Source: a virus. Taken from it: a DNA stretch of 22,611 nt. The stretch is taken from the IMG/VR virus record IMGVR_UViG_3300032342_000073, positions 1-22,611 of that record; one strand, written 5' to 3'. The notes below the pieces were generated by a model. It did no database searches. It was given only the letters and a program-made list of their open reading frames with translations, and had not been told where the DNA came from. Numbering within the stretch: the first letter of the stretch is position 1; the number at the start of each line of letters is the position of its first letter. Positions 1 through 18,882 of this stretch are shown here, in pieces. The translations under genes were made by a program, and so were the position numbers.

Positions 1-3000
1 GCTGAGTTCGTCCTGCGTCATCACGTCGACGGCGGCGTGGTAGACGTCGCGGTCCCGGTGTCCGAGTACGTCGACGATCACCTGGGCACGGGCCTCGAAC
101 TCCTCACGGCCCTTCCGCGTCGTGGTGTCGGCGTCTCTGTCCCATTCCTTGACGTGCGCCAGAAGGTCGTGCAGGGCGTCGTTGGTGGCTGGGGTGTGGA
201 CGAGGGTATCCAGGCGCCAGCCAAGTTCAGCCTCCAGCGAGGCGAGGTCGTCCTGCTGGAACTTGGTCAGCGGGGCGTCTTTGGCCTCTTCCTCGAGCTT
301 GGCGATGGCGTCTTCGACGTTCGCCAGGCTCATCTCGAAGTGCTCGGGGTTCGGGCGGGCGGAGGCCGGCGCGGGGACGTGCTTCTCGGCCGGTGCCTTC
401 TCGGGCTCCGCTTCGAGATGCATCACGCGGGAGACGGGGATCCAATGCGAGAGCTTCTTGTCCGGTTCGATGGCGACCTTGACGTTGGAATTGTCTCCGT
501 CGAATCGCTGAATCTCTCCGAATCCCTCGTCCACGGAGACCCGGTCCCCGACCTTGAACCCGCCGACCTCCGTGACCTCCGTCTTGATGCCCGTGCGCGT
601 GGGGATGATCTTGGCCTTCGTGAAGGTGACGGTCGGTACGGCTTCGGCAACTGCCGTTTTCGTTTCCGCAATTGCGGCTTTCTGCGTGGTTTCCGTGGTA
701 GGCGCCTCCGCCTGCCCCGGCCGCGCGACGCCGGTCACGTTGTAGACGGTGTCCTCGATGCCGGGGCCGGGCTTGTGATACCAGACCTTCGACGGCGGGC
801 TCCACTTCCAGCCCTGCTTCTTCAGGCCGTCGAGGACAACGGGGGCGGGCTTCTTGGCGAAGCGCAGCTCGAGGTTACCGTTCGCCGCTCTGCGACGGAC
901 GCTGGCCTTTGGCCCCTCCTGCCATGAATCGTCTGGAGGGAAGGCGCCGAACGATGTGCCGGTCGCGGTGGGCGCTGTTGGTGCCTGTCGGACCGTGTCG
1001 GTGCCTGTCGGTTCGGTCTGGGCCGACACTGGAGCGGGCGCTGCGGGTTCCTCGGGCATCCCGCCAATCTCGCGCAGGCGGGCCTCGACGGGGGCGAGGT
1101 CGGCGCGGAAGCCTGCCATCTGGTCACGGCGGGCTCGCACCATCGCGCCCTGCTGCGCGTTCGCGGGCTGCTTGGCGACCCACTGTTCGCCGTTGTCGAT
1201 CTCGCGGAGCAGATACATACGGCGAAGCCTGAGTTTGGCCGCTTCGGCGGCAGCGCCCTCTCCTTCCGCCGGCTTCCCCGCCTCGACATGCGCCTGAGTC
1301 GTTACCTCGGCGAGATGGTCGCGGGCCTCTTGGATGGCGTCAGCGCGGGCGGCCGGGGTCTCGTGCTCCGCGTTGATGACGTCCGCGAACTCCTGCCGCG
1401 CCGTCTCGATGCGGGCCGCGCCCTCGGCGGTGGCCTTGCGGGCGCCGACGTTGGGGCCTAGCTCGGCGGGCGCCGCTTCCGCCTTCTCTTCCTTCGGTAT
1501 CAGCCCGGCCTCCTGCATGAGGCGCTTCATCTCGGCCTTGGCCGCGGCCTTCTCGTCCGGTGTGGCGGCCGGCGCTTCGACCGCTGGCGTCGGTTGTCCG
1601 GCGGTGGCTGGAGTGGGTTTCGGCGTCCGCATCGCCGCCTTGACGGACTTCACGAACCTGTTTTCCGCGCTCTCTAGATCGCTTCGCCCTGCCATCTTGA
1701 AGTCGTCCTCAACCGCCTCGCGGAAGCGATCAAGCGCAGACTGAAGCGACTCCGGGGCTTTCCCTTCTCCGACGAGCGTATCTACCGCATCTGCGAGGTC
1801 GCGCACGGTCGGTAGTTGGCCCGTGCCGTCGTACTGCTCCCAGGCGTCGGCTAATGAGGCGATGGGCTGTTCGGCCTTGGCCGCGGCTTCATCTCGGAAC
1901 ATCGCCTCCATGTCACCCGCACCGAACAGGCTGGTCGGTGGTTCAGGTTGTCCGGCGGTGGCGGTCAAACCTTCGGCCGCCGCAGGGACGGGCGGCGGGG
2001 GCGGGACCACTGCTGTCCGAACCTCGGACCTGTCTTGTCCGGTCGGGACAGGGGTTGTCTGAGGTGGTGCCACCACCGCGCCTTGTTCGGCGACAGCGCG
2101 CGCCCGGTCAGCCAGGACCGCCGGCAACGACGCCGCCGGCACCCCACGGTGCCCGAGTTCGGCGATGAGGAGTTGGGCGTCAAGCCCTCCCCGCTTTGCG
2201 GGTTTGATGGCCGCCAGATCGGTAAGGAGGGCATCGGTGCTCGCCGCACGGTAGTCGATCCCCAGGACCTCGCCGGGGGTCTTCGAGGCTTCCGGCGCGA
2301 TCGACACCTCCGCGACGGTGCGCGACTTCGGCCAGCCGCCCAGGTCATGCGATGGAGTTGTCGCCCCGAGTTCCATCTGACGTCCGCCGAAGGACTCCAA
2401 CTGCGAGACCAGCGTGCCGACCCGGGCGACCTCTGCCGCCGAGGCGCCAGCCTCACGCAACCCTTGGTAGACTTTGTTCGCCCCGCCCACCGCGACGAAC
2501 GTGGCCGCGAGGTTCTGCACGAACCGCTTGGTGGCAGGCGAGGCTCCGGCGGCGTCGGCCGCCACGCCAGCGGCGAGAGAGGCCGCGTAGGTGGCCGCCA
2601 GGGCCACGGCCGTCGGCCCGGCGCTCATCAGCATCCCGGCGACGGCGAGAGGCGTGGCGGCCCCGCCAAGGCCCTCCATCGTCTCCGAGAGCGCGTTCAT
2701 CGTCTGCTCGGGATGCGGCGTGGCAACCTGGCCGAGTGGGCCTCCACGCAGGACGAACCCCGATTGCCCGCCTTCGATGACGCCCTTCCCGATCTTCTGG
2801 ACGCCTTCGATGGTCGTGGCGGCGAGACCCGGGGGGCCGGCCGCTTCCTGCATCTCCCCGACGTTGTACGGGTCGGTCGCTACGTCGCGGAGCGTGGCGT
2901 TCGTGCGGGCCACCGCCGAGAGTGGCGCCGGCGTCGGCGCGTGGCTCGGGACCGGCGCGATACGATCGAGCCCCACGAACCGCGGCGGGTTGAACGGCGT

Positions 3001-3573
3001 CGGAGTGCGAGCGGCCAGCGTCGAGAGGGCATCGTGCGCCGGCTTCCAGACGAGGCCCGGGTCCACCGGAGCGGGCGGCACCGCCTCCCCGGGCTGGTAG
3101 ACCTTCACGCTGCCTGGGTCAGTCACGCCTCGGGCGACCATTGGCACAGTCGGGCGCGACCCCTCCGGCGTCGCGGCCAAGTCGGCCGCGGCCTGGGGTT
3201 CCCATCCGACGTCGACGAGGTCTTGGAAGTCGCCCCGTGGCATGTTCGGTACGCGGGCGCCGGTGATGGTGTTGAATCCTCCGGCTATCTCGTTGGGGTG
3301 GCCCGGAAGTTTGAAGTCCGACGGCCAATGCCCGGAGGCATCGGGCCCGGTCACGCCGGCCGCTCGTGCCGCTTCGTAGTTGTAGACCTCGGGCTCGTGG
3401 CTGGCGATCGGAGCCGGAACCTCAGCCATCGTCTCCCGCTGCCGGAGGAATCCCAACGCCGAGGAACGCCAGTCGCCAGGCGTCGGTTCGGGCGTCAACG
3501 ACTCGGCGAGCGGCGATTCGACCTGCAGCCGGCTGTCGAGAAACGAACGAGCGGAGGTGCGCCAGTCGGGCAT
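1..3573 (-). CDS. Very large polyvalent/ejection-type protein, partial (left end cut)
   Basis: An open frame of 1191 codons runs from ATG 3573 to the left edge without a stop, so the C-terminus is missing. The start lies 4 bases after the stop of the upstream gene, with GGGG at a suitable distance. Residues 3-12 and 34-43 repeat the pattern DWR(S/T)SAxxFL. Residues about 81-93 (GHWPSDFKLPGHP) match a motif I associate with internal virion proteins of phages. Residues 306-343 are an Ala/Gly/Leu-rich hydrophobic stretch that could insert in a membrane. Pro-rich linkers and charged helices follow. Residues 898-934 (LELRF..KP...LDGLKKQGWKW....VWYH) resemble a small domain seen in polyvalent proteins and near antirestriction modules. 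Residues 1006-1050 look like an SH3/KOW-type barrel. By position it corresponds to the last ejection protein (gp16 place). Delivery into the host with DNA is inference; the enzymatic role, if any, may lie outside the window. Confidence 0.85.
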   Translation of the reverse strand, partial: MPDWRTSARSFLDSRLQVESPLAESLTPEPTPGDWRSSALGFLRQRETMAEVPAPIASHEPEVYNYEAARAAGVTGPDASGHWPSDFKLPGHPNEIAGGFNTITGARVPNMPRGDFQDLVDVGWEPQAAADLAATPEGSRPTVPMVARGVTDPGSVKVYQPGEAVPPAPVDPGLVWKPAHDALSTLAARTPTPFNPPRFVGLDRIAPVPSHAPTPAPLSAVARTNATLRDVATDPYNVGEMQEAAGPPGLAATTIEGVQKIGKGVIEGGQSGFVLRGGPLGQVATPHPEQTMNALSETMEGLGGAATPLAVAGMLMSAGPTAVALAATYAASLAAGVAADAAGASPATKRFVQNLAATFVAVGGANKVYQGLREAGASAAEVARVGTLVSQLESFGGRQMELGATTPSHDLGGWPKSRTVAEVSIAPEASKTPGEVLGIDYRAASTDALLTDLAAIKPAKRGGLDAQLLIAELGHRGVPAASLPAVLADRARAVAEQGAVVAPPQTTPVPTGQDRSEVRTAVVPPPPPVPAAAEGLTATAGQPEPPTSLFGAGDMEAMFRDEAAAKAEQPIASLADAWEQYDGTGQLPTVRDLADAVDTLVGEGKAPESLQSALDRFREAVEDDFKMAGRSDLESAENRFVKSVKAAMRTPKPTPATAGQPTPAVEAPAATPDEKAAAKAEMKRLMQEAGLIPKEEKAEAAPAELGPNVGARKATAEGAARIETARQEFADVINAEHETPAARADAIQEARDHLAEVTTQAHVEAGKPAEGEGAAAEAAKLRLRRMYLLREIDNGEQWVAKQPANAQQGAMVRARRDQMAGFRADLAPVEARLREIGGMPEEPAAPAPVSAQTEPTGTDTVRQAPTAPTATGTSFGAFPPDDSWQEGPKASVRRRAANGNLELRFAKKPAPVVLDGLKKQGWKWSPPSKVWYHKPGPGIEDTVYNVTGVARPGQAEAPTTETTQKAAIAETKTAVAEAVPTVTFTKAKIIPTRTGIKTEVTEVGGFKVGDRVSVDEGFGEIQRFDGDNSNVKVAIEPDKKLSHWIPVSRVMHLEAEPEKAPAEKHVPAPASARPNPEHFEMSLANVEDAIAKLEEEAKDAPLTKFQQDDLASLEAELGWRLDTLVHTPATNDALHDLLAHVKEWDRDADTTTRKGREEFEARAQVIVDVLGHRDRDVYHAAVDVMTQDELS
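1592..1962. repeat. Pair of identical 17-bp direct repeats inside the large protein gene
   Basis: The plus-strand word ggttgtccggcggtggc occurs at 1592-1608 and again at 1946-1962. On the coding strand both copies are read in the same frame and encode ATAGQP, each within a Pro/Ala-rich linker. The repeats probably arose by duplication within the low-complexity linker and have no visible regulatory role. The feature span covers both copies and the unique sequence between them. Confidence 0.6.
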
Positions 3574-3577
3574 CCGT

Positions 3578-5038
3578 TTACCCCGCGAGCAGTCGACGGA
3601 GTTCGGCGAGACGCTGCGCGTAGAGGGGCGACTTGACCTGTCCCTGGCGCTCGAGGCCCTGAATCTCGGCCATCAACGCCTCGACACGCGCCTGCAGCGC
3701 CGCGTCGTTGGTCGGCCCGACCGCGGGCCCCGGCGGCACCGCTGGTGTCGGGGCGACGGCCGGCGGCGGCACACTGGCCGGAGCGGTCACGGGTCCATGT
3801 GAGGCGACGGCTGGCGGGAGCGCCACCGCCGCGGGCTTCGTCAACGCCGACAGGGGCGGGGCCAGGCCAGAGTTGACGGGCGCCTTGAGTTCCATCGTGC
3901 CCGGCAACCGCTTGCCCGAGAGCGGATCGTATCCAGGCGACGCCTGCGGCCAGTAGACGTCGATGGCCTTTTGCAGTTCGAGCCCACTCATGTTGGGATG
4001 GTCCCGTTGCAGGTCCGGCGTTGCTCGCGCCAACTCCGCCTCGGCCTGGTCGCGGCTGTAGCCGCGGTTCCGCATGTCGGTCAGGTAGCGGTCGACACCG
4101 ACGGGGAACTTCGGGTTGTCCTTGAACGGGGTCCCGGCTCCCGCGGCGTCCGGCTTGCGCTGCGCGGCGCTATAGGCCGAGATTAGCGCGGCACTATCCT
4201 TCACGGTTTTTGGTTCGCCGTGTTCCTGCTCCCACCCGTGGTAGAACACCGCGAACTCTGACGTCGGGGCCTTCGCCTCATCAAGGACCTTCAAGGCTGC
4301 CGCCCTCTCCTGCTCCGTCTGCGGGCCGAACGTCGGCGTGAACGTCGGCATGAGCGACTTGCCGCCGACCATCTCGGCCAGTCGTGTACTCGCGGCGATC
4401 CGTTGATCCAAGTCGGCCTGATCCGTGACGGGGGTGGCCCACACCTGAGCACCAGCCTTCAAGGCATACGGGAGGGATTTGAGTGCATCGAGCGCCCGAG
4501 CCTGGGCCTTGTCCTTCTCCTCCTGCCGGTCCTTCAGATACTTGCTGGTCATCTCCGGGTCGACGGCCATCCCCTGACTCCGCACTTCCTCGGGGTTGTC
4601 CTCACCGTACACACCGATCAACGCACCCACCTGTTGCTTGTTGGACTGGTTGATCTGGTCCTGGCCCATCTTGGCGTAGGCGGCCGATTCCTTTTCAAAG
4701 CCCGCGTCCGCAAACACCTTGGCTCGCGCCATCAGCGGCAGACCGGCTGTGGTCTTCGTCAAGACATCGACCCGCGCCGCGTCGTTTTCCTCGCGGGTCA
4801 AACGGACGGTCTGCGCCTCACGCAGCTTGCGTTCCGGCTCGCCAGCCTGGTACTTGACAAGATCGGACATCGTGCGCCCGGTCGTGTCGATGAGGTTGCC
4901 CCACAGGTACGCGTTCGCGGCGCCCTGCTGGTTGGCCGCGTTCGCGGCGATGGCACCGCGAGACCGGATGAGGTCCGACATCCTCGCTGCAGAGGCGTCA
5001 TTGCGATACGCCGGCCGAACATAGGGAATTGAGGCCAT
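3578..5038 (-). CDS. Putative internal virion / DNA-ejection protein (486 aa)
   Basis: The gene starts at ATG 5038 in a TAATG overlap with the preceding stop, so it is translationally coupled to its neighbour. Residues 1-330 are mainly helical and charged, rich in Ala, Gln and Asp, without a signal peptide. Residues about 385-445 form a long Pro/Ala/Val linker, and the last 40 residues form a helical pair with regular Leu (LQARVEALMAEIQGLE, then LAELRRLLAG) that may be a coiled-coil oligomerisation element. No enzyme motif was recognised. Its place directly before the very large last protein and after the tail-neck genes matches the ejection-protein block of P22-like phages (gp7, gp20, gp16). 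I infer that it is packaged in the head and expelled at infection. The family is not identified, so the role rests on position and composition. Confidence 0.8.
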   Translation of the reverse strand: MASIPYVRPAYRNDASAARMSDLIRSRGAIAANAANQQGAANAYLWGNLIDTTGRTMSDLVKYQAGEPERKLREAQTVRLTREENDAARVDVLTKTTAGLPLMARAKVFADAGFEKESAAYAKMGQDQINQSNKQQVGALIGVYGEDNPEEVRSQGMAVDPEMTSKYLKDRQEEKDKAQARALDALKSLPYALKAGAQVWATPVTDQADLDQRIAASTRLAEMVGGKSLMPTFTPTFGPQTEQERAAALKVLDEAKAPTSEFAVFYHGWEQEHGEPKTVKDSAALISAYSAAQRKPDAAGAGTPFKDNPKFPVGVDRYLTDMRNRGYSRDQAEAELARATPDLQRDHPNMSGLELQKAIDVYWPQASPGYDPLSGKRLPGTMELKAPVNSGLAPPLSALTKPAAVALPPAVASHGPVTAPASVPPPAVAPTPAVPPGPAVGPTNDAALQARVEALMAEIQGLERQGQVKSPLYAQRLAELRRLLAG

Positions 5039-6144
5039 TAGGTTGATGCTCCTAGTTCTGCCATCCAGCGGCGGCGTTCCTCGGCCATAACCTCACGCTT
5101 CCAGGCGTCGCTTTCTGCCGCCACCGCCTTGCGATAGACGTCATCGGTGCTATACACCGTTTTCCGGAAGTCGTCATCGGCCATGAACACCATCCGTCGA
5201 TACGTGTCATCGCGGTTGTAGAGCTCCTTTTGCCAGTCCCGATCGAAGGTGAGCTCTGCGGCACGCTGGTCGTTCGCGGTCTTGGTCTGCCAGCCCAGGA
5301 GACTCGGCGAGTACTCGGCCTCTGACCCGGCGAAGGCGCGGTCCCACGCGGAGCGGCCCTCCCCCGCGTTGCGGTCCCACGCGGCGCCCTTCCGGGACTC
5401 AGCGGCTGCGTACTCCTTGGCCGCCATGTCCTGCCCGTAGGCGACGAGGTCCTTGAGCGTGCCTCCCGTTCTGAGGACCCCTTTAGCCGCAGCCGCGCCT
5501 TCGAGGGCTTTCTTGCCCTCGCCGAATCGGAAGGCGTAGCTCGGGTCGCTGGAGAGTTCGTCCGCCGTGAGCGTCCCGTAGGGTGTTGCCGGGGTATAGG
5601 TCGGTGCGGTGTAGGCCGGTGGCGCCACAGCAACCGGGGCCGCGAACATGGACGACGTCGATGGCGCGAGCGACTCGGGAAGCACCACCGGCGCCTCGGC
5701 TCCAGCCGTGGCCGGTGTCGTGACGGACGCCGGCGTGCTCGCAACGGGCGAGGTCCAGGCGGGTGCGGCCGGCTGTGCCACGGGTGGAGGAACGGAGACC
5801 GGCGCGGGCGTGGTCGCTAACGTGGGCGTCGACGGCGAGGTCGGAACTCCCGTGGGTAGCGTTTGGTCGGGGCCGATGTCGTTCGGATCCCAGTACAGTT
5901 GGCCGTCACCGCCCACCTTCCACCGGCCCGGCTGCCCGGACACGTTGATCTGACGTGGGGAGGGGGCCGGCGACGGCGCGGGCACGGGGGCCGGTCCTGG
6001 CGCGGGCGTCGGCGCCGGCGCGGGAATAGGATCGGGGACGGGCCCTGGTGCGGCCGACGCACCGCTAAAGGCTTCGCCAAACTCGTCTTCCGTGAGGGGT
6101 CGCCCGAGCGCGTTGCTGAGGTCGTCGTAGGGATAGGCTTGCAT
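5038..6144 (-). CDS. Putative ejection/internal virion protein with hendecad repeats (368 aa)
   Basis: ATG 6144 follows a GAGG about nine bases upstream and 5 bases after the previous stop. Residues 33-63 are an almost pure Pro/Ala tract, and residues 100-190 are Pro/Thr/Ala-rich and probably disordered. Residues 200-246 (DPSYAFRFGEGKKALE, then KGVLRTGGTLKDLVAYGQD) match a domain I have seen repeatedly in podovirus virion proteins, although I know no established function for it. Residues 245-360 are helical and highly charged with an aromatic residue every 11 positions: Y245, W256, W267, Y278, F300, then W304, Y315, F326, Y337, W348. Such hendecads favour long straight helical bundles. The neighbours and composition suggest an ejected protein forming part of a conduit, but that is inference. 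Confidence 0.82.
   Translation of the reverse strand: MQAYPYDDLSNALGRPLTEDEFGEAFSGASAAPGPVPDPIPAPAPTPAPGPAPVPAPSPAPSPRQINVSGQPGRWKVGGDGQLYWDPNDIGPDQTLPTGVPTSPSTPTLATTPAPVSVPPPVAQPAAPAWTSPVASTPASVTTPATAGAEAPVVLPESLAPSTSSMFAAPVAVAPPAYTAPTYTPATPYGTLTADELSSDPSYAFRFGEGKKALEGAAAAKGVLRTGGTLKDLVAYGQDMAAKEYAAAESRKGAAWDRNAGEGRSAWDRAFAGSEAEYSPSLLGWQTKTANDQRAAELTFDRDWQKELYNRDDTYRRMVFMADDDFRKTVYSTDDVYRKAVAAESDAWKREVMAEERRRWMAELGAST
5065..5235 (-). repeat. Five tandem 33-bp (11-codon) repeat units
   Basis: The 3' end of the 368-residue gene is built from degenerate 33-bp units. The encoded units are LYNRDDTYRRM, VFMADDDFRKT, VYSTDDVYRKA, VAAESDAWKRE and VMAEERRRWMA. Three of them share a GATGAC core at the DNA level followed by an aromatic codon and two basic codons. 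This is a tandem internal duplication that has diverged while keeping its period. Confidence 0.7.
5956..6048 (-). repeat. Low-complexity Pro/Ala codon tract
   Basis: Residues 33-63 of the 368-residue protein are built from alternating Pro and Ala with a few Gly, Val and Ser. The DNA is a run of related GCG/CCG/GCC triplets. Tracts of this kind act as stiff extended linkers and change length easily by slippage. No other function is visible. Confidence 0.6.
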
Positions 6145-6149
6145 CGTGA

Positions 6150-7034
6150 CTACCTCTTCATCGCCGGCAGGGCCAGCGTGCTCAACGACGTGGGCGTCGG
6201 ACTCTGCACGAGGAGACGATAGGCGTCTTCCGACATCCCTTGGTACGGATTCGTCGACGCGAATTGTGGCGCGGAGCCGTAGTCCCGTGGCGTGTAGGCC
6301 AGACCCGGGACGCTCACGGCGCTCGGAAGGGCCGTGGTGGAATCCGTCGCGGTCGTCTCAGGAACGTAACCAGGCCCCCCGGCTGGCTGCCAGGTCGGCG
6401 ACCACAGTCCCGCGCCGGACCCGCCGAAGACATCGAAGGTGCTGATCCCCTCAAATGCCGGATCCAAGGTGCCGCCGATGACGAGCTTGTCGCCACTCAA
6501 CGTGGCGTTCTTGAAGTAGCCGCTCGGATCGGCGCGCAACATCGCCAGCATCTGTTCGCGCTGCGACGGGTCGGTCGTATCGAAGTTCGACGCGATCCTG
6601 GCGAAGTTGTACTTGGGCGTGCGGTGTGTGAGGTCCGCGAGCTTCCCCGCGTCCCACGACGTTGACTTCCCCGCGTACTTGCCGACCGGGACGTCTCCAG
6701 TCGCCATCCCCGATGACCCGGCCGCAGACTGGGAGGTTACGAGACCGGCCCACGTCGAATCGTCGACGGTTTTCACGACGCCGCCGTGCGCTTTGACGTA
6801 GGTAGTGGCGGACGCGACCTCACCCGGCTGAAGCCACCGATAGTTGCCGTGCTCGAAGAGCATGGCCCCGCCCGCGGCGTTCGTGTAGAGGGTCGGCACC
6901 GCCGGTTTCGCGGCCTGCGTCCGTGCTTGCTCGGCCCCCAGGTCGTAGCCATAACCGGCCGTCGGGTCGTCGGGGGTGGTGGACGCGCCAACCTGATTCC
7001 AGAACGTCGGCACCGCCGTATCGGCTTGGATCAT
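6150..7034 (-). CDS. Virion-associated protein of unknown function (294 aa)
   Basis: The start codon overlaps the previous stop as ATGA at 7031-7034, indicating coupled translation with the 256-residue protein. The protein is rich in Gly, Ala, Thr and Ser, has no signal peptide or membrane segment and no motif that I recognise. Residues about 60-75 (HGNYRWLQPGEV) and 140-180 (RIASNFDTTDPSQREQMLAML) are the best-ordered stretches. The C-terminal third is Pro/Ser/Thr-rich, ending in a helix-like segment. It lies in the middle of the ejection-type block and is probably a virion component. A tail-tip or plug role would also fit the position. Function is not assignable from sequence. Confidence 0.8.
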   Translation of the reverse strand: MIQADTAVPTFWNQVGASTTPDDPTAGYGYDLGAEQARTQAAKPAVPTLYTNAAGGAMLFEHGNYRWLQPGEVASATTYVKAHGGVVKTVDDSTWAGLVTSQSAAGSSGMATGDVPVGKYAGKSTSWDAGKLADLTHRTPKYNFARIASNFDTTDPSQREQMLAMLRADPSGYFKNATLSGDKLVIGGTLDPAFEGISTFDVFGGSGAGLWSPTWQPAGGPGYVPETTATDSTTALPSAVSVPGLAYTPRDYGSAPQFASTNPYQGMSEDAYRLLVQSPTPTSLSTLALPAMKR

Positions 7035-7801
7035 GACTGGTACACCTGCGCCCTTCTCGACCGCGCCAACGCACTCAGGGAGGCCCCGCCTCTGCCCGCC
7101 CGCACCAGGGCCGCGACCTGTCCAGGGGTCAACGCGCCCATCACGGCCGGGCGTGGTGCCGCGAGACCCTGGTACGCGGCCGACGCCATACTTGGCGCCG
7201 TCGCGGCCGTGGCGGCCGGCGCGTCAATGACGGTCGGCTCTGGCGCCGAGGTCGGCGGAAGAAGCTGCGGGTTATCAAGAAATGAACGGTCCGTGGTGTC
7301 GGTGGTTTCCGCCGTGGTCGTGGCTTTGGACGTGCCCGCGGTCACGGGGTCTCCCGCTTTCCAGTCTTTCGGCATCGTGTCGAGGAGTGGCGCGGGCGAC
7401 GCCGCCTGAGCTGGTGGTCCGGCCACACCGGACAGCGTGGCGAGTTGCGCGAGAGCGCCGACGCCGGCCGCTCGGTACGGGGCCATCTGTGACTGGCGGT
7501 CGGTGTACTTCTGCTTGGCCAGCGCGAACTCCGCCTGACGGATGGCGAGCGTATCGCCGTACTGCGTCTCTTCTTTGGCCTGCTCGGCGTCCCATTGGGC
7601 TTTGGCTTCGGTCTGTTCCCGTTCCCATTCGGCCCTGGCCTCGGCGGCCTGTTCTTTCTCGAAGGCCAATTGGTCGGCATTCGCGGACAGTTGCACGTCG
7701 GCCGCTCGCTTAGAGGACCCGGACTCCGACCTCGCAGCCACCACACTCGCCGTGGTTTTAGCCGCCGCGGTTATTATTGCGGCGACAACGATTGCTGGCA
7801 T
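7031..7801 (-). CDS. Putative ejection/internal virion protein, coiled-coil (256 aa)
   Basis: The frame is open upstream of 7801, but ATG 7801 has a strong AGGAGG a few bases upstream and gives the compact start MPAIVVAA; it overlaps the end of the acetyltransferase gene by 28 bases. Residues 1-22 are hydrophobic and Ala-rich, either an amphipathic helix or a membrane-seeking segment. Residues 36-108 are a charged helix with aromatic residues at F47, W59, W70, Y81 and F92, mostly 11 apart. PYRAAGVGALAQL (108-120) resembles a motif common after such helices in phage virion proteins. The remainder is Pro/Ala/Thr-rich with a basic C-terminal helix. By position and composition it would be the first ejection protein of the block (gp7/gp20 place). 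The assignment is inference. Confidence 0.82.
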   Translation of the reverse strand: MPAIVVAAIITAAAKTTASVVAARSESGSSKRAADVQLSANADQLAFEKEQAAEARAEWEREQTEAKAQWDAEQAKEETQYGDTLAIRQAEFALAKQKYTDRQSQMAPYRAAGVGALAQLATLSGVAGPPAQAASPAPLLDTMPKDWKAGDPVTAGTSKATTTAETTDTTDRSFLDNPQLLPPTSAPEPTVIDAPAATAATAPSMASAAYQGLAAPRPAVMGALTPGQVAALVRAGRGGASLSALARSRRAQVYQS

Positions 7802-8187
7802 GATGCCTCCTCTTGGTCGAACGCCATCGGCAGGGCAAAGGCTGTTCCTGGCACCTCGACACCCCCGAACTTCTGACTCAGCGCCCGGACGTGGTCGGTC
7901 GTCGCATTCGTCAATACCGCCCGCACGTGCCAGTCCTTCGCAATACGCTGCATCCCACGAATCAACCGATAGCCGATGCCTGGCGAGTGGCGTCGGTCGG
8001 GCGCGATCCAGAGACACTCTGCATGCACAACACGGAGGGCCATCCACACCCCGACAATCTGCCCTTCCTGTTCCACCACAAGCACGCGCGTGTTGACCGG
8101 GTCCAGGTTCTGCCACACCTCCGCCGCCTCGGTGCCGGCAAGTCTCGGCCATTCGTCCGGCGGTAAGAGGTGTGCAAAATAGCTCAT
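7774..8187 (-). CDS. GNAT-like N-acetyltransferase (137 aa)
   Basis: The fold is suggested by the ordered elements RVLVVEQEGQIVGVW (34-48), then a beta strand HAECLWIAP (55-63), the acetyl-CoA loop region RRHSPGIGYRLIRGM (65-79), and a second strand and helix RAVLTNATTDHVRALSQKFGG (89-109). The usual Q/RxxGxG/A loop is seen as HxxGxG (H67, G70, G72), so the first position is atypical. The ATG overlaps the previous stop as ATGA at 8184-8187 with GGAG seven bases upstream. GNAT enzymes move an acetyl group from acetyl-CoA to an amine. The substrate here cannot be read from sequence; a virion protein or a host protein are both possible. Similar proteins occur in the tail regions of other phages, as I recall. 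Confidence 0.8.
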   Translation of the reverse strand: MSYFAHLLPPDEWPRLAGTEAAEVWQNLDPVNTRVLVVEQEGQIVGVWMALRVVHAECLWIAPDRRHSPGIGYRLIRGMQRIAKDWHVRAVLTNATTDHVRALSQKFGGVEVPGTAFALPMAFDQEEASCQQSLSPQ

Positions 8188-16410: not shown

Positions 16411-18882
16411 CTATACCGGCGAAGAATCAGGCGCGATGAACTCCGACTCCCCCTTGACCGGCGGATAGGCCGGCTCGAGGGCGGCGTCGCGCACCGCGGC
16501 ATGGTCTTCGTGCGAGGCGTCACGCCTCGCCGCACGTTCTTCTTTGGCTTCCTCGCGCCTGGAGGCGTGTTCCTCGTGCGCGGCGTCTTGGGCTTTCGTG
16601 TGGTCGGCGTGGACCATACTCGCGGCCTGGCTTTCGCGCTTCGTCTGGTCTTGCATCGTGGCGATGCTTTCCTTCGACCCGAGCTCGGCGCCCTTCGTGG
16701 TGGTATTCGCCCGAATCTTGGCGGCTTCGATGCGTTCCCGGCTGGCAATCTCGAGTGTCTTGATGCGTTCGTTCGACGCGACGCGCAATTCCTCAACCGG
16801 CAGGCCGCTCTTCGCCTTGGCGAGCTCCTGTTGAAGCGCCTGCATCTGCTGTTGCATCTGGGCCATCTGCGCCTGCACTTCGGGCGGAATCTCCGCCGGC
16901 CCGCCTTCTTCCTCGTCCTTCAATTGCGGGTTGATCTTCTCCAGCCGGTCCTTGACGCGCTTCCCGATGTCCGTCCCTTCGAGGTCGGCCGCGATGTCGA
17001 TGAGATAGGGCGCGAGGTTCGGGGCGGCCTGAATCACGCCGAGGACAAACGCCTTCTGCGCGTCCTGCTGTGTGGCGAACGCCTGGCCGATGGTGACGGC
17101 CACGGTGTAGTCGCCGTCGTCGAGGTTGTAGGTCTTGGCCTTCTCGAGGGGCTTCTTCCCGCGCATCTTCTGGAGCAACGCGGGAATCAGCCCTGGCGCG
17201 TTGGGCTCGGCGGAGACCGGACGACCGTCTGGGCCAGTGATGAACGGCTGTTTCAGCAGGACTTCCCGCTCATCTTTGGGATCATCACCCAGGAGCCGCA
17301 CCACGCGGCCCGGACGGTCGTAGACGTACTTGAGGAGGTCGAGCAGGACCCGACCCTCGTAGACCATGCTGATGTTGGCAAGGTTCTCGAGGTAGTTGGA
17401 ACTCGATTGCTCGCCTTGCTGCTTGAGGGCCTGAATCGCCTTGCCCGAGCGGTTGCTGTCCTGTTTGCCGAGGGACGGGTTGAACCGGCCAGTCGTGGCC
17501 TGGATGTCCATGTCGGCCTCGCGGGCCATCAGGACGGAGGCGGAGATGTTCGTTGAACTCAGATCGTTACGCTTAGGTGACTCGACAAGATGGCCTTCGA
17601 ACGTGGTCGGCTTGTACTTCAACCGTGTGAACGCCCGGGTATTCGCCTCGTCCCACATTTGCTCGTAGCCTTCGTCCTGGCCTTCGGCCATGACCCACGG
17701 GGCAAGCGATTCAAGGCCAGAACGTAGCGCCTGCGAGCTGCGGGCGTAGTTGTAGAGGCGCTGGGCGTCCTTGGCATTCGAGACGACGCCCTTCCACGCG
17801 GCCTCTCCGTCGACGTTGTATTCCTTGCCGATCACCGGGATGATCGGAATGTACCGGCCCTCCCACTCTTCCTCGTCCAGCATCTCGTGGGCGTTGATCA
17901 CGGCCCACTTGACCTGGCGCTTCTGCACCGTGCGGCTCACGAGCACGCCCTCGGACGGCTTGACACCCTTCGGCAGCAATTCGTTCTTACCCGTCTGCGG
18001 GTTGAGGATTAACTCCCGCGCCTCGTACTCCACGTAGAAATACTCGGCGACGCGAATCGTGCCGGTGTCCTTGCCCCCGTCCGTCACCCATCCCGGCGAA
18101 TTGTCGGTGACGCTCTGCAACTCTTCCGCGCTCATGGCGGCCAGCGCCGATTTCCCGTAGAGGCGCTTGTATTCCTTCACCGGCATGTCGTCGGTGATGA
18201 ACGCGAACTCGCCGTCGGACCAATCCGGCTCCTGCGCGTAGGGGTCGAGGTAGACGCAGCCCTGGTTCTTGATGCGCTGCACGACGAGGTCCATGTCGAA
18301 GTCCCCGTCGTTGGCTTGGGTCTTGAGGATGCGGTAGGCGCCGCGGCCACACTTCACGGCCCGTTCCAGCGCCCAGATCCGGGCGATGTTGGCCCGGCTA
18401 TCGTTCTCAATCGACCGAATCATGCCCTGGCGTAGTTCGGCGCCTTCCTTGTTCGCGCCGTTGCCCTTGGGCTTGATGATGATGCCGAGACGAGCCTTGC
18501 GGGCCTCGTTGATCACTTGCTGGACAGGCTGATCGACCTTCGAAATGACCAAGCATGGACGGGCAGCAATCACACTCCCGTCAGGAGCAATCCCGCCCGC
18601 CCGTGCCTTCCGCAAGGACTCTGGCCACTGGTCATCGGGCAGCGCCCGGTCAAACTTCAGGTCCTCGACTTCACGATCGCGCTGGTCGCCCTCGATCTCA
18701 AGGATGAGCTTAAAGCGGTCCATCGCCTCGGCGACGATGTCCGCGTTTCGTTTCGCGTGGTCTTTCTTGGTGGGGGTGCCGTCGGCCTCGAGGTCTCGGG
18801 CCGTGGCAAGCGAGGCGTCGTAGTCAGACGCCTCATCACGAAGAAGCTGCATCCCACGTCGCGGCGACAGGCGGTCAGCCAT
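16411..18882 (-). CDS. Portal protein, P22 gp1-like (823 aa)
   Basis: The P22-type portal is recognised from the order IEGDQRDREVEDLKFDR, the central VYLDPYAQEPDWSDGEFAF, VAEYFYVEYEARE, and the stem/crown part SGKAIQALKQQGEQSSSNYLENL near residues 479-501. The protein forms a dodecameric ring at one vertex, threading DNA and docking terminase and gp4. Residues about 665-800 are a long charged helix, presumably the barrel, with an exact 11-residue period from 700 to 800 including HADH 758, HEEH 769, KEER 780 and HEDH 791. The family member in P22 is 725 residues, so the C-terminal extension is longer here. The start overlaps the previous gene by 8 bases, with GAGG before it. Confidence 0.94.
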   Translation of the reverse strand: MADRLSPRRGMQLLRDEASDYDASLATARDLEADGTPTKKDHAKRNADIVAEAMDRFKLILEIEGDQRDREVEDLKFDRALPDDQWPESLRKARAGGIAPDGSVIAARPCLVISKVDQPVQQVINEARKARLGIIIKPKGNGANKEGAELRQGMIRSIENDSRANIARIWALERAVKCGRGAYRILKTQANDGDFDMDLVVQRIKNQGCVYLDPYAQEPDWSDGEFAFITDDMPVKEYKRLYGKSALAAMSAEELQSVTDNSPGWVTDGGKDTGTIRVAEYFYVEYEARELILNPQTGKNELLPKGVKPSEGVLVSRTVQKRQVKWAVINAHEMLDEEEWEGRYIPIIPVIGKEYNVDGEAAWKGVVSNAKDAQRLYNYARSSQALRSGLESLAPWVMAEGQDEGYEQMWDEANTRAFTRLKYKPTTFEGHLVESPKRNDLSSTNISASVLMAREADMDIQATTGRFNPSLGKQDSNRSGKAIQALKQQGEQSSSNYLENLANISMVYEGRVLLDLLKYVYDRPGRVVRLLGDDPKDEREVLLKQPFITGPDGRPVSAEPNAPGLIPALLQKMRGKKPLEKAKTYNLDDGDYTVAVTIGQAFATQQDAQKAFVLGVIQAAPNLAPYLIDIAADLEGTDIGKRVKDRLEKINPQLKDEEEGGPAEIPPEVQAQMAQMQQQMQALQQELAKAKSGLPVEELRVASNERIKTLEIASRERIEAAKIRANTTTKGAELGSKESIATMQDQTKRESQAASMVHADHTKAQDAAHEEHASRREEAKEERAARRDASHEDHAAVRDAALEPAYPPVKGESEFIAPDSSPV
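16483..16785 (-). repeat. Hendecad (33-bp) repeat tract encoding the portal C-terminal helix
   Basis: Residues 700-800 of the portal read as successive 11-residue units, for example VASNERIKTLE then IASRERIEAAK, and later HADHTKAQDAA, HEEHASRREEA, KEERAARRDAS, HEDHAAVRDAA. The last four units are exactly in phase and three of them carry HxxH at the same place. The DNA is related between units in the His/Glu/Ala codons. Confidence 0.65.

Follow-up and report, generated by a model that had tools for sequence, protein, structure and literature searches.

Does the aromatic ladder in two neighbouring proteins of a P22-like virus form a genuine structural repeat, and what would such a repeat do during DNA ejection? 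The question was raised by positions 5065-7801 of a viral DNA of 22,611 nucleotides (the window, meaning the whole stretch that was analysed), for which it had been predicted that an aromatic residue recurs every 11 positions in two ejection-type proteins, here called A and B. The features concerned are listed by their coordinates in the window.

5038..6144, minus strand: protein A, 368 residues, most likely the second (C-terminal) half of a gp7-type DNA-ejection protein that is split; its N-terminal part contains a linker rich in Pro and Ala
5404..5559, minus strand: conserved core of A, residues 196-247, DPSYAFRF...LRTGGTLKDLVAYGQ...EY, recognised by a PHROG match
5311..5412, minus strand: first hendecad array of A, Y245 to Y278, with rungs at 245, 256, 267 and 278
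5065..5247, minus strand: second hendecad array of A, F300 to W360, with rungs at 304, 315, 326, 337 and 348, and at 309, 320 and 331
7031..7801, minus strand: protein B, 256 residues, probable N-terminal half of the split gp7-type protein

All fifteen residues listed in the original prediction, for A and B together, were found at the positions given for them. In A, aromatic pairs at a distance (lag) of 11 residues numbered 11 relative to 2.6 expected, a count reached in none of 5,000 shuffles (family-wise p 0.0002 across lags 1-30), and pairs at lag 22 were likewise in excess. Shuffled sequences thus never gave an equal periodicity, and with the phase also kept in homologues (see below) the claim of one aromatic every 11 positions was borne out for this protein. 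A further register that had been overlooked, Y309-F320-Y331 (spacings of 11 and 11), means that the second array bears two aromatic stripes, and alignments of relatives gave this array a conserved unit of its own, of the form DD-x-[FYW]-R-[RK]. The lag-11 excess of aromatics was absent from the other proteins tested in the window, including proteins M and C described below. No 33-base tandem repeat was found in the DNA, so that the 11-residue pattern looks maintained rather than freshly duplicated, and a recent DNA duplication was rejected as the source of the array.

Alignment-based scans, and tblastn with relatives as queries, supplied the relatives of A, which came from viral contigs, cultured phages and one genome contig. 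When A itself was the query, cultured phages gave no match at either the DNA or the protein level, nor did a genome scan with alignment A3 give one; the genome scan with alignment A5 gave one contig, from an Acidobacteria bin, which does not settle the host. Across 55 non-redundant relatives, pooled aromatic pairs at lag 11 numbered 303 relative to 96 expected (z 23.7), with further signal at lag 22 (z 22.7) and lag 33 (z 14.6), and the lesser peaks (lags 4, 7, 15, 18, 26, 29 and 40) were those expected of an 11/3 helix with its 3.67-residue repeat. The 11-residue phase of A was therefore conserved among its homologues, in these pooled counts as well as in the alignments, and A displayed the apolar 11-residue period, kept in homologues, by which hendecad coiled coils are recognised.

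Length changes among the relatives followed the same period. Among 32 relatives, the spacing between the conserved Tyr that follows the core and the next [FYW]xP, a landmark that may be non-homologous in the most divergent relatives, was divisible by 11 in 18 (22, 33, 44, 55, 66, 88 and 132), with a binomial probability of 2e-11 that should be read loosely, as the relatives are not independent. Six more of the 32 gave distances of 4 mod 11 (15, 26, 59 and 81), corresponding to one extra turn, and about a quarter were neither 0 nor 4 mod 11. Independently of these mod-11 probabilities, steps of 11 residues were seen in the close pair formed by A and its closest relative (L059), in whose alignment the flanks match well and the gaps measure exactly 33 and 11 residues, the second array of L059 having exactly one unit of 11 more than that of A. 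Two and three units, respectively, were present in the Vibrio phages L054 and L055, and the array length ranged about nine-fold across the relatives. As judged from these sequences, the pattern marks the helix of A as a modular rod that lengthens and shortens mostly by whole 11-residue steps.

5182..5460, minus strand: predicted single continuous helix of A, residues 229-321 (93 residues; AlphaFold2, 22 homologues, mean pLDDT 81.9)

The expectation of a near-straight helix in A agreed with this AlphaFold2 model, in which the first array lies within one continuous predicted helix; pTM was low in the models of both A and B (0.41 and 0.45, respectively). A PDB sequence search with A gave no match to a solved structure, and Foldseek gave no significant fold match for A, a lone helix holding little fold information. 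The chemistry of the repeat was taken from a profile of 44 array units, in which position a was aromatic (His counted) in 95%, position e was Tyr/Phe or Arg, position h was Ala/Gly/Ser in 64%, and the remainder was mostly Asp, Arg, Asn and Ala, with Arg and Asn found at c and d and Asp occurring in the unit roughly as often as Arg. GRAVY values were -1.0 to -1.4 in the repeat regions, with about 37% charged residues (-1.0 to -1.2 and 37% in the array of A), and the net charge of A245-366 was -3; the helix is otherwise polar, and the aromatics supply its main apolar stripe. Such a narrow stripe of aromatic and small residues, polar elsewhere, points to burial between helices rather than to contact with lipid or a DNA lumen, and from the unit profile the aromatic/alanine stripe of A most likely packs helix against helix.

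The description of the two proteins as 'ejection-type' was supported by family matches. Residues 196-247 of A, within which LRTGGTLK is invariant in alignment A3, matched phrog_598 ('DNA ejection'; profile positions 85-136, E 2.1e-9). This placed A in the family of P22 gp7, which itself matched phrog_598 at 2e-95 and the Pfam model PF25688 at 9.2e-129; neither A nor B matched PF25688. Presence in the virion, ejection before the DNA and a requirement for infection are characteristic of the P22 gp7/phrog_598 family. B matched phrog_598 weakly (profile positions 39-76, E 0.057), over a region that precedes that of A, and the B-type protein of a relative (L019) matched positions 39-73 at 1.8e-4; B accordingly looks like the N-terminal half. 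Both halves were found in a single chain in one metagenome relative (L045), in the Vibrio phages L054, L055 and L058, and in Pseudomonas phage PAE2 (L057). The gp7-type protein of PAE2 (L057 5695-6606) carries the annotation of a C-terminal chaperone of endosialidase (pfam13884), an unusual tail. Taken together, the phrog_598 matches, the single-chain relatives, the P22-type portal and coat and the gene order make it most likely, on comparative sequence grounds, that B and A are a split gp7-type ejection protein, made as two chains in this phage lineage.

6150..7034, minus strand: protein M, 294 residues, between B and A, without a ladder
3578..5038, minus strand: protein C, 486 residues, at the P22 gene 20 position by gene order relative to P22, without an 11-residue period
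1..3573, minus strand: open reading frame of 1,191 residues or more, truncated where the window ends and placed by gene order at the position of P22 gene 16

The window encodes a P22-type portal and coat, and its gene order is also of the P22 type: in the P22 record the head-completion gene is followed by genes 7, 20 and 16, and here B, M and A stand at the place of gene 7, after a gp10-type gene, followed by C and the large frame, the gene 20 and 16 positions being assigned by order alone. P22 gp7 differs in being a single chain of ~230 residues, relative to B (256 residues) and A (368 residues) with M between them, and the hendecad arrays of A were not seen in it. In one relative (L035) an M-like stretch lies at the start of a 661-residue protein bearing the A core, which indicates that gene fusions and splits occur at this place. 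C had no match among the PHROGs and none in Pfam that passed the cut-off, and the frame at the gene 16 position had almost no family match. A single frame of ~8 kb follows the gene 20 position in two of the Vibrio phages (from 7402 onward in L054 and from 7417 onward in L055); it is annotated as a DNA methylase/methyltransferase and is probably a giant ejected protein.

7430..7747, minus strand: predicted single helix of B, residues 19-124 (106 residues; AlphaFold2, 16 homologues, mean pLDDT 84.1)
7526..7663, minus strand: aromatic ladder of B, F47, W59, W70, Y81 and F92, partly conserved
7736..7792, minus strand: hydrophobic N-terminal stretch of B, residues 4-22 (mean Kyte-Doolittle 1.9)

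The companion ladder proposed for B stood only in part. Three lag-11 aromatic pairs were observed relative to 0.4 expected (p 0.005 for lag 11 alone), the pooled relatives of B had 17 such pairs relative to 4.8 (z 5.9), and several of them kept a 12-11-10 spacing from F/Y/L to a PY motif. The family-wise p of 0.13 for B is not convincing alone, and in the nearest relative (L059) two of the five rungs are occupied by Q and L and a 7-residue indel (an insertion in L059) separates the two sequences, so that a ladder in B equal to that in A was rejected as unproven. B is thus best described as a long helix studded with aromatics, for which a strict hendecad ladder is not established. The length of the B helix followed that of the A array in a subset (rho 0.80, n 13) and gave rho 0.19 over all 18, a comparison in which the B length of L037 looks mis-measured; a matched hairpin or ruler formed by B and A is only a possibility. 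The start of B is overlapped by a GNAT-type acetyltransferase gene (7774-8187, minus strand) that lies within the virion gene block, and what seems to be a gene of the same type is found at the same place, by B, in a relative (L004).

Three known systems bear on what the arm of A might do. T7 gp14, an internal core protein that makes up the ejectosome's outer-membrane end, is listed as the counterpart of P22 gp7 (PMC8954989). It is ejected early, and six copies, each with two antiparallel helices, form a channel located in the nozzle and the outer membrane (PMC11784390; PMC8954989). It resembles A and B in being all-helical with long helices, but it is one 196-residue chain that forms two-helix hairpins in a hexamer (PMC11784390), and no sequence match to it was found. 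The tube formed by the DNA pilot protein H of phiX174, which is known to conduct DNA, has hendecads in its sequence, and amide and guanidinium side chains make up most of its lining (PMC7354561). Like A, H is a helical DNA-delivery protein with 11-residue repeats; it belongs to an unrelated virus, and its repeats, three hendecads followed by heptads, consist of L/I/M and Q rather than an aromatic stripe. In the open-licence papers searched, no earlier description of hendecads or 11-residue repeats in gp7-type proteins was found; for ejection proteins, the searches led to phiX174 H. With hendecad (11/3) coiled coils in general, A shares the period of 11, apolar positions a, e and h, and a near-straight (predicted) helix, and it differs from them in having one aromatic per unit on an otherwise very polar sequence.

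The reading that we favour, to which we give a probability of about 0.5, is that the ladder forms a modular, near-straight helical arm of a split gp7-type (T7 gp14-like) DNA-ejection protein, acting as a buried interface and as a segment of a channel. Position a (Y/W/F), together with e (Y/F) and h (Ala/Gly), would form a stripe of an 11/3 helix that is buried against other helices, the candidate partners being a second copy of A, B (the two forming an antiparallel hairpin) or, inside the head, the barrel of the portal. Once ejected, several copies may come together as a section of helical channel that prolongs the short tail across the cell envelope; the polar Asn/Arg/Asp surfaces would face solvent and DNA, and insertions of whole hendecads would lengthen the arm while leaving the register of the interface undisturbed. 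We infer the assembly, partner, timing and function of the A/B arm by analogy, that for tube formation being with T7 gp14 and phiX174 H.

16414..16797, minus strand: C-terminus of the portal, residues 696-823, a probable helical barrel (P22_portal Pfam match)

An arm that acts mainly inside the virion is compatible with, rather than exclusive of, this favoured reading. The hendecads of A would then pack along a hendecad-like C-terminal barrel of the portal and hold the ejection proteins at the exit. In support, apolar residues plus Ala show a weak 11-residue period of their own in portal residues 696-823. About 12 copies of P22 gp7, a number like that of the portal, lie close to the portal axis, and this protein has been suggested as the primary binder of the portal barrel (PMC4992974). 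In mature T7 virions, the gp14 helices are wrapped around the portal barrel (PMC11784390). Against this, the portal signal is modest (family-wise p 0.025), the P22 portal peaks at lag 18 and not at 11, and a nine-fold variation in array length would have to be accommodated; action mainly at the portal is a reading we take seriously while considering it unlikely. Somewhat less probable still is that the period reflects nothing more than the drift of any long soluble helix with sparse apolar residues and no specific partner. A period of 3.67 is indeed near the natural helical repeat, and B is only weakly 11-periodic, with a 7-residue indel relative to L059, but this reading would leave unaccounted for that the repeated residues are specifically aromatic, at almost one per unit and at a fixed position in the 44 later units, that the other window proteins tested lacked the signal, and that the indels of the nearest relative are of exactly 11 and 33 residues.

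The original prediction had the aromatic faces lining a membrane- or periplasm-spanning tube, directed toward lipid or DNA. The protein family, the gene position and the confinement of the aromatics to one face are in keeping with a tube of that kind, but the arrays are strongly hydrophilic, with the aromatics as their main apolar stripe, and the lumen of the phiX174 H tube, described above, has a different lining. The membrane-spanning form of the proposal was not supported, a membrane-spanning array being rejected on polarity (GRAVY and 37% charged residues), and an aromatic-lined tube of either kind is very unlikely. The poorest prospect was a flexible rod that binds packaged DNA or another phage protein, the period reflecting the ligand: Arg and Asn at unit positions c and d would suit such binding, but the net charge is near zero or negative, as in A245-366, and Arg is balanced by about as much Asp, which makes this reading very improbable.

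Within the ejectosome of short-tailed phages, the gp7/gp14-type ejection proteins are poorly understood, and the conserved, countable module of A offers a concrete handle on them, as the number of units can be set against the length of the channel, the oligomeric state and the length of the portal barrel. A gp7-type protein appears here split in two chains, and the arrays place double-stranded DNA podophages beside phiX174 in having 11-residue helices in their DNA-delivery proteins. A more speculative extension, to which we attach little probability, is that the arm serves as a quantised molecular ruler, in which the number of units in A, matched by the helix of B, sets the length of the trans-envelope channel segment. 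If this were true, phages would fit the length of the channel to the thickness of the envelope by gaining and losing whole hendecads.
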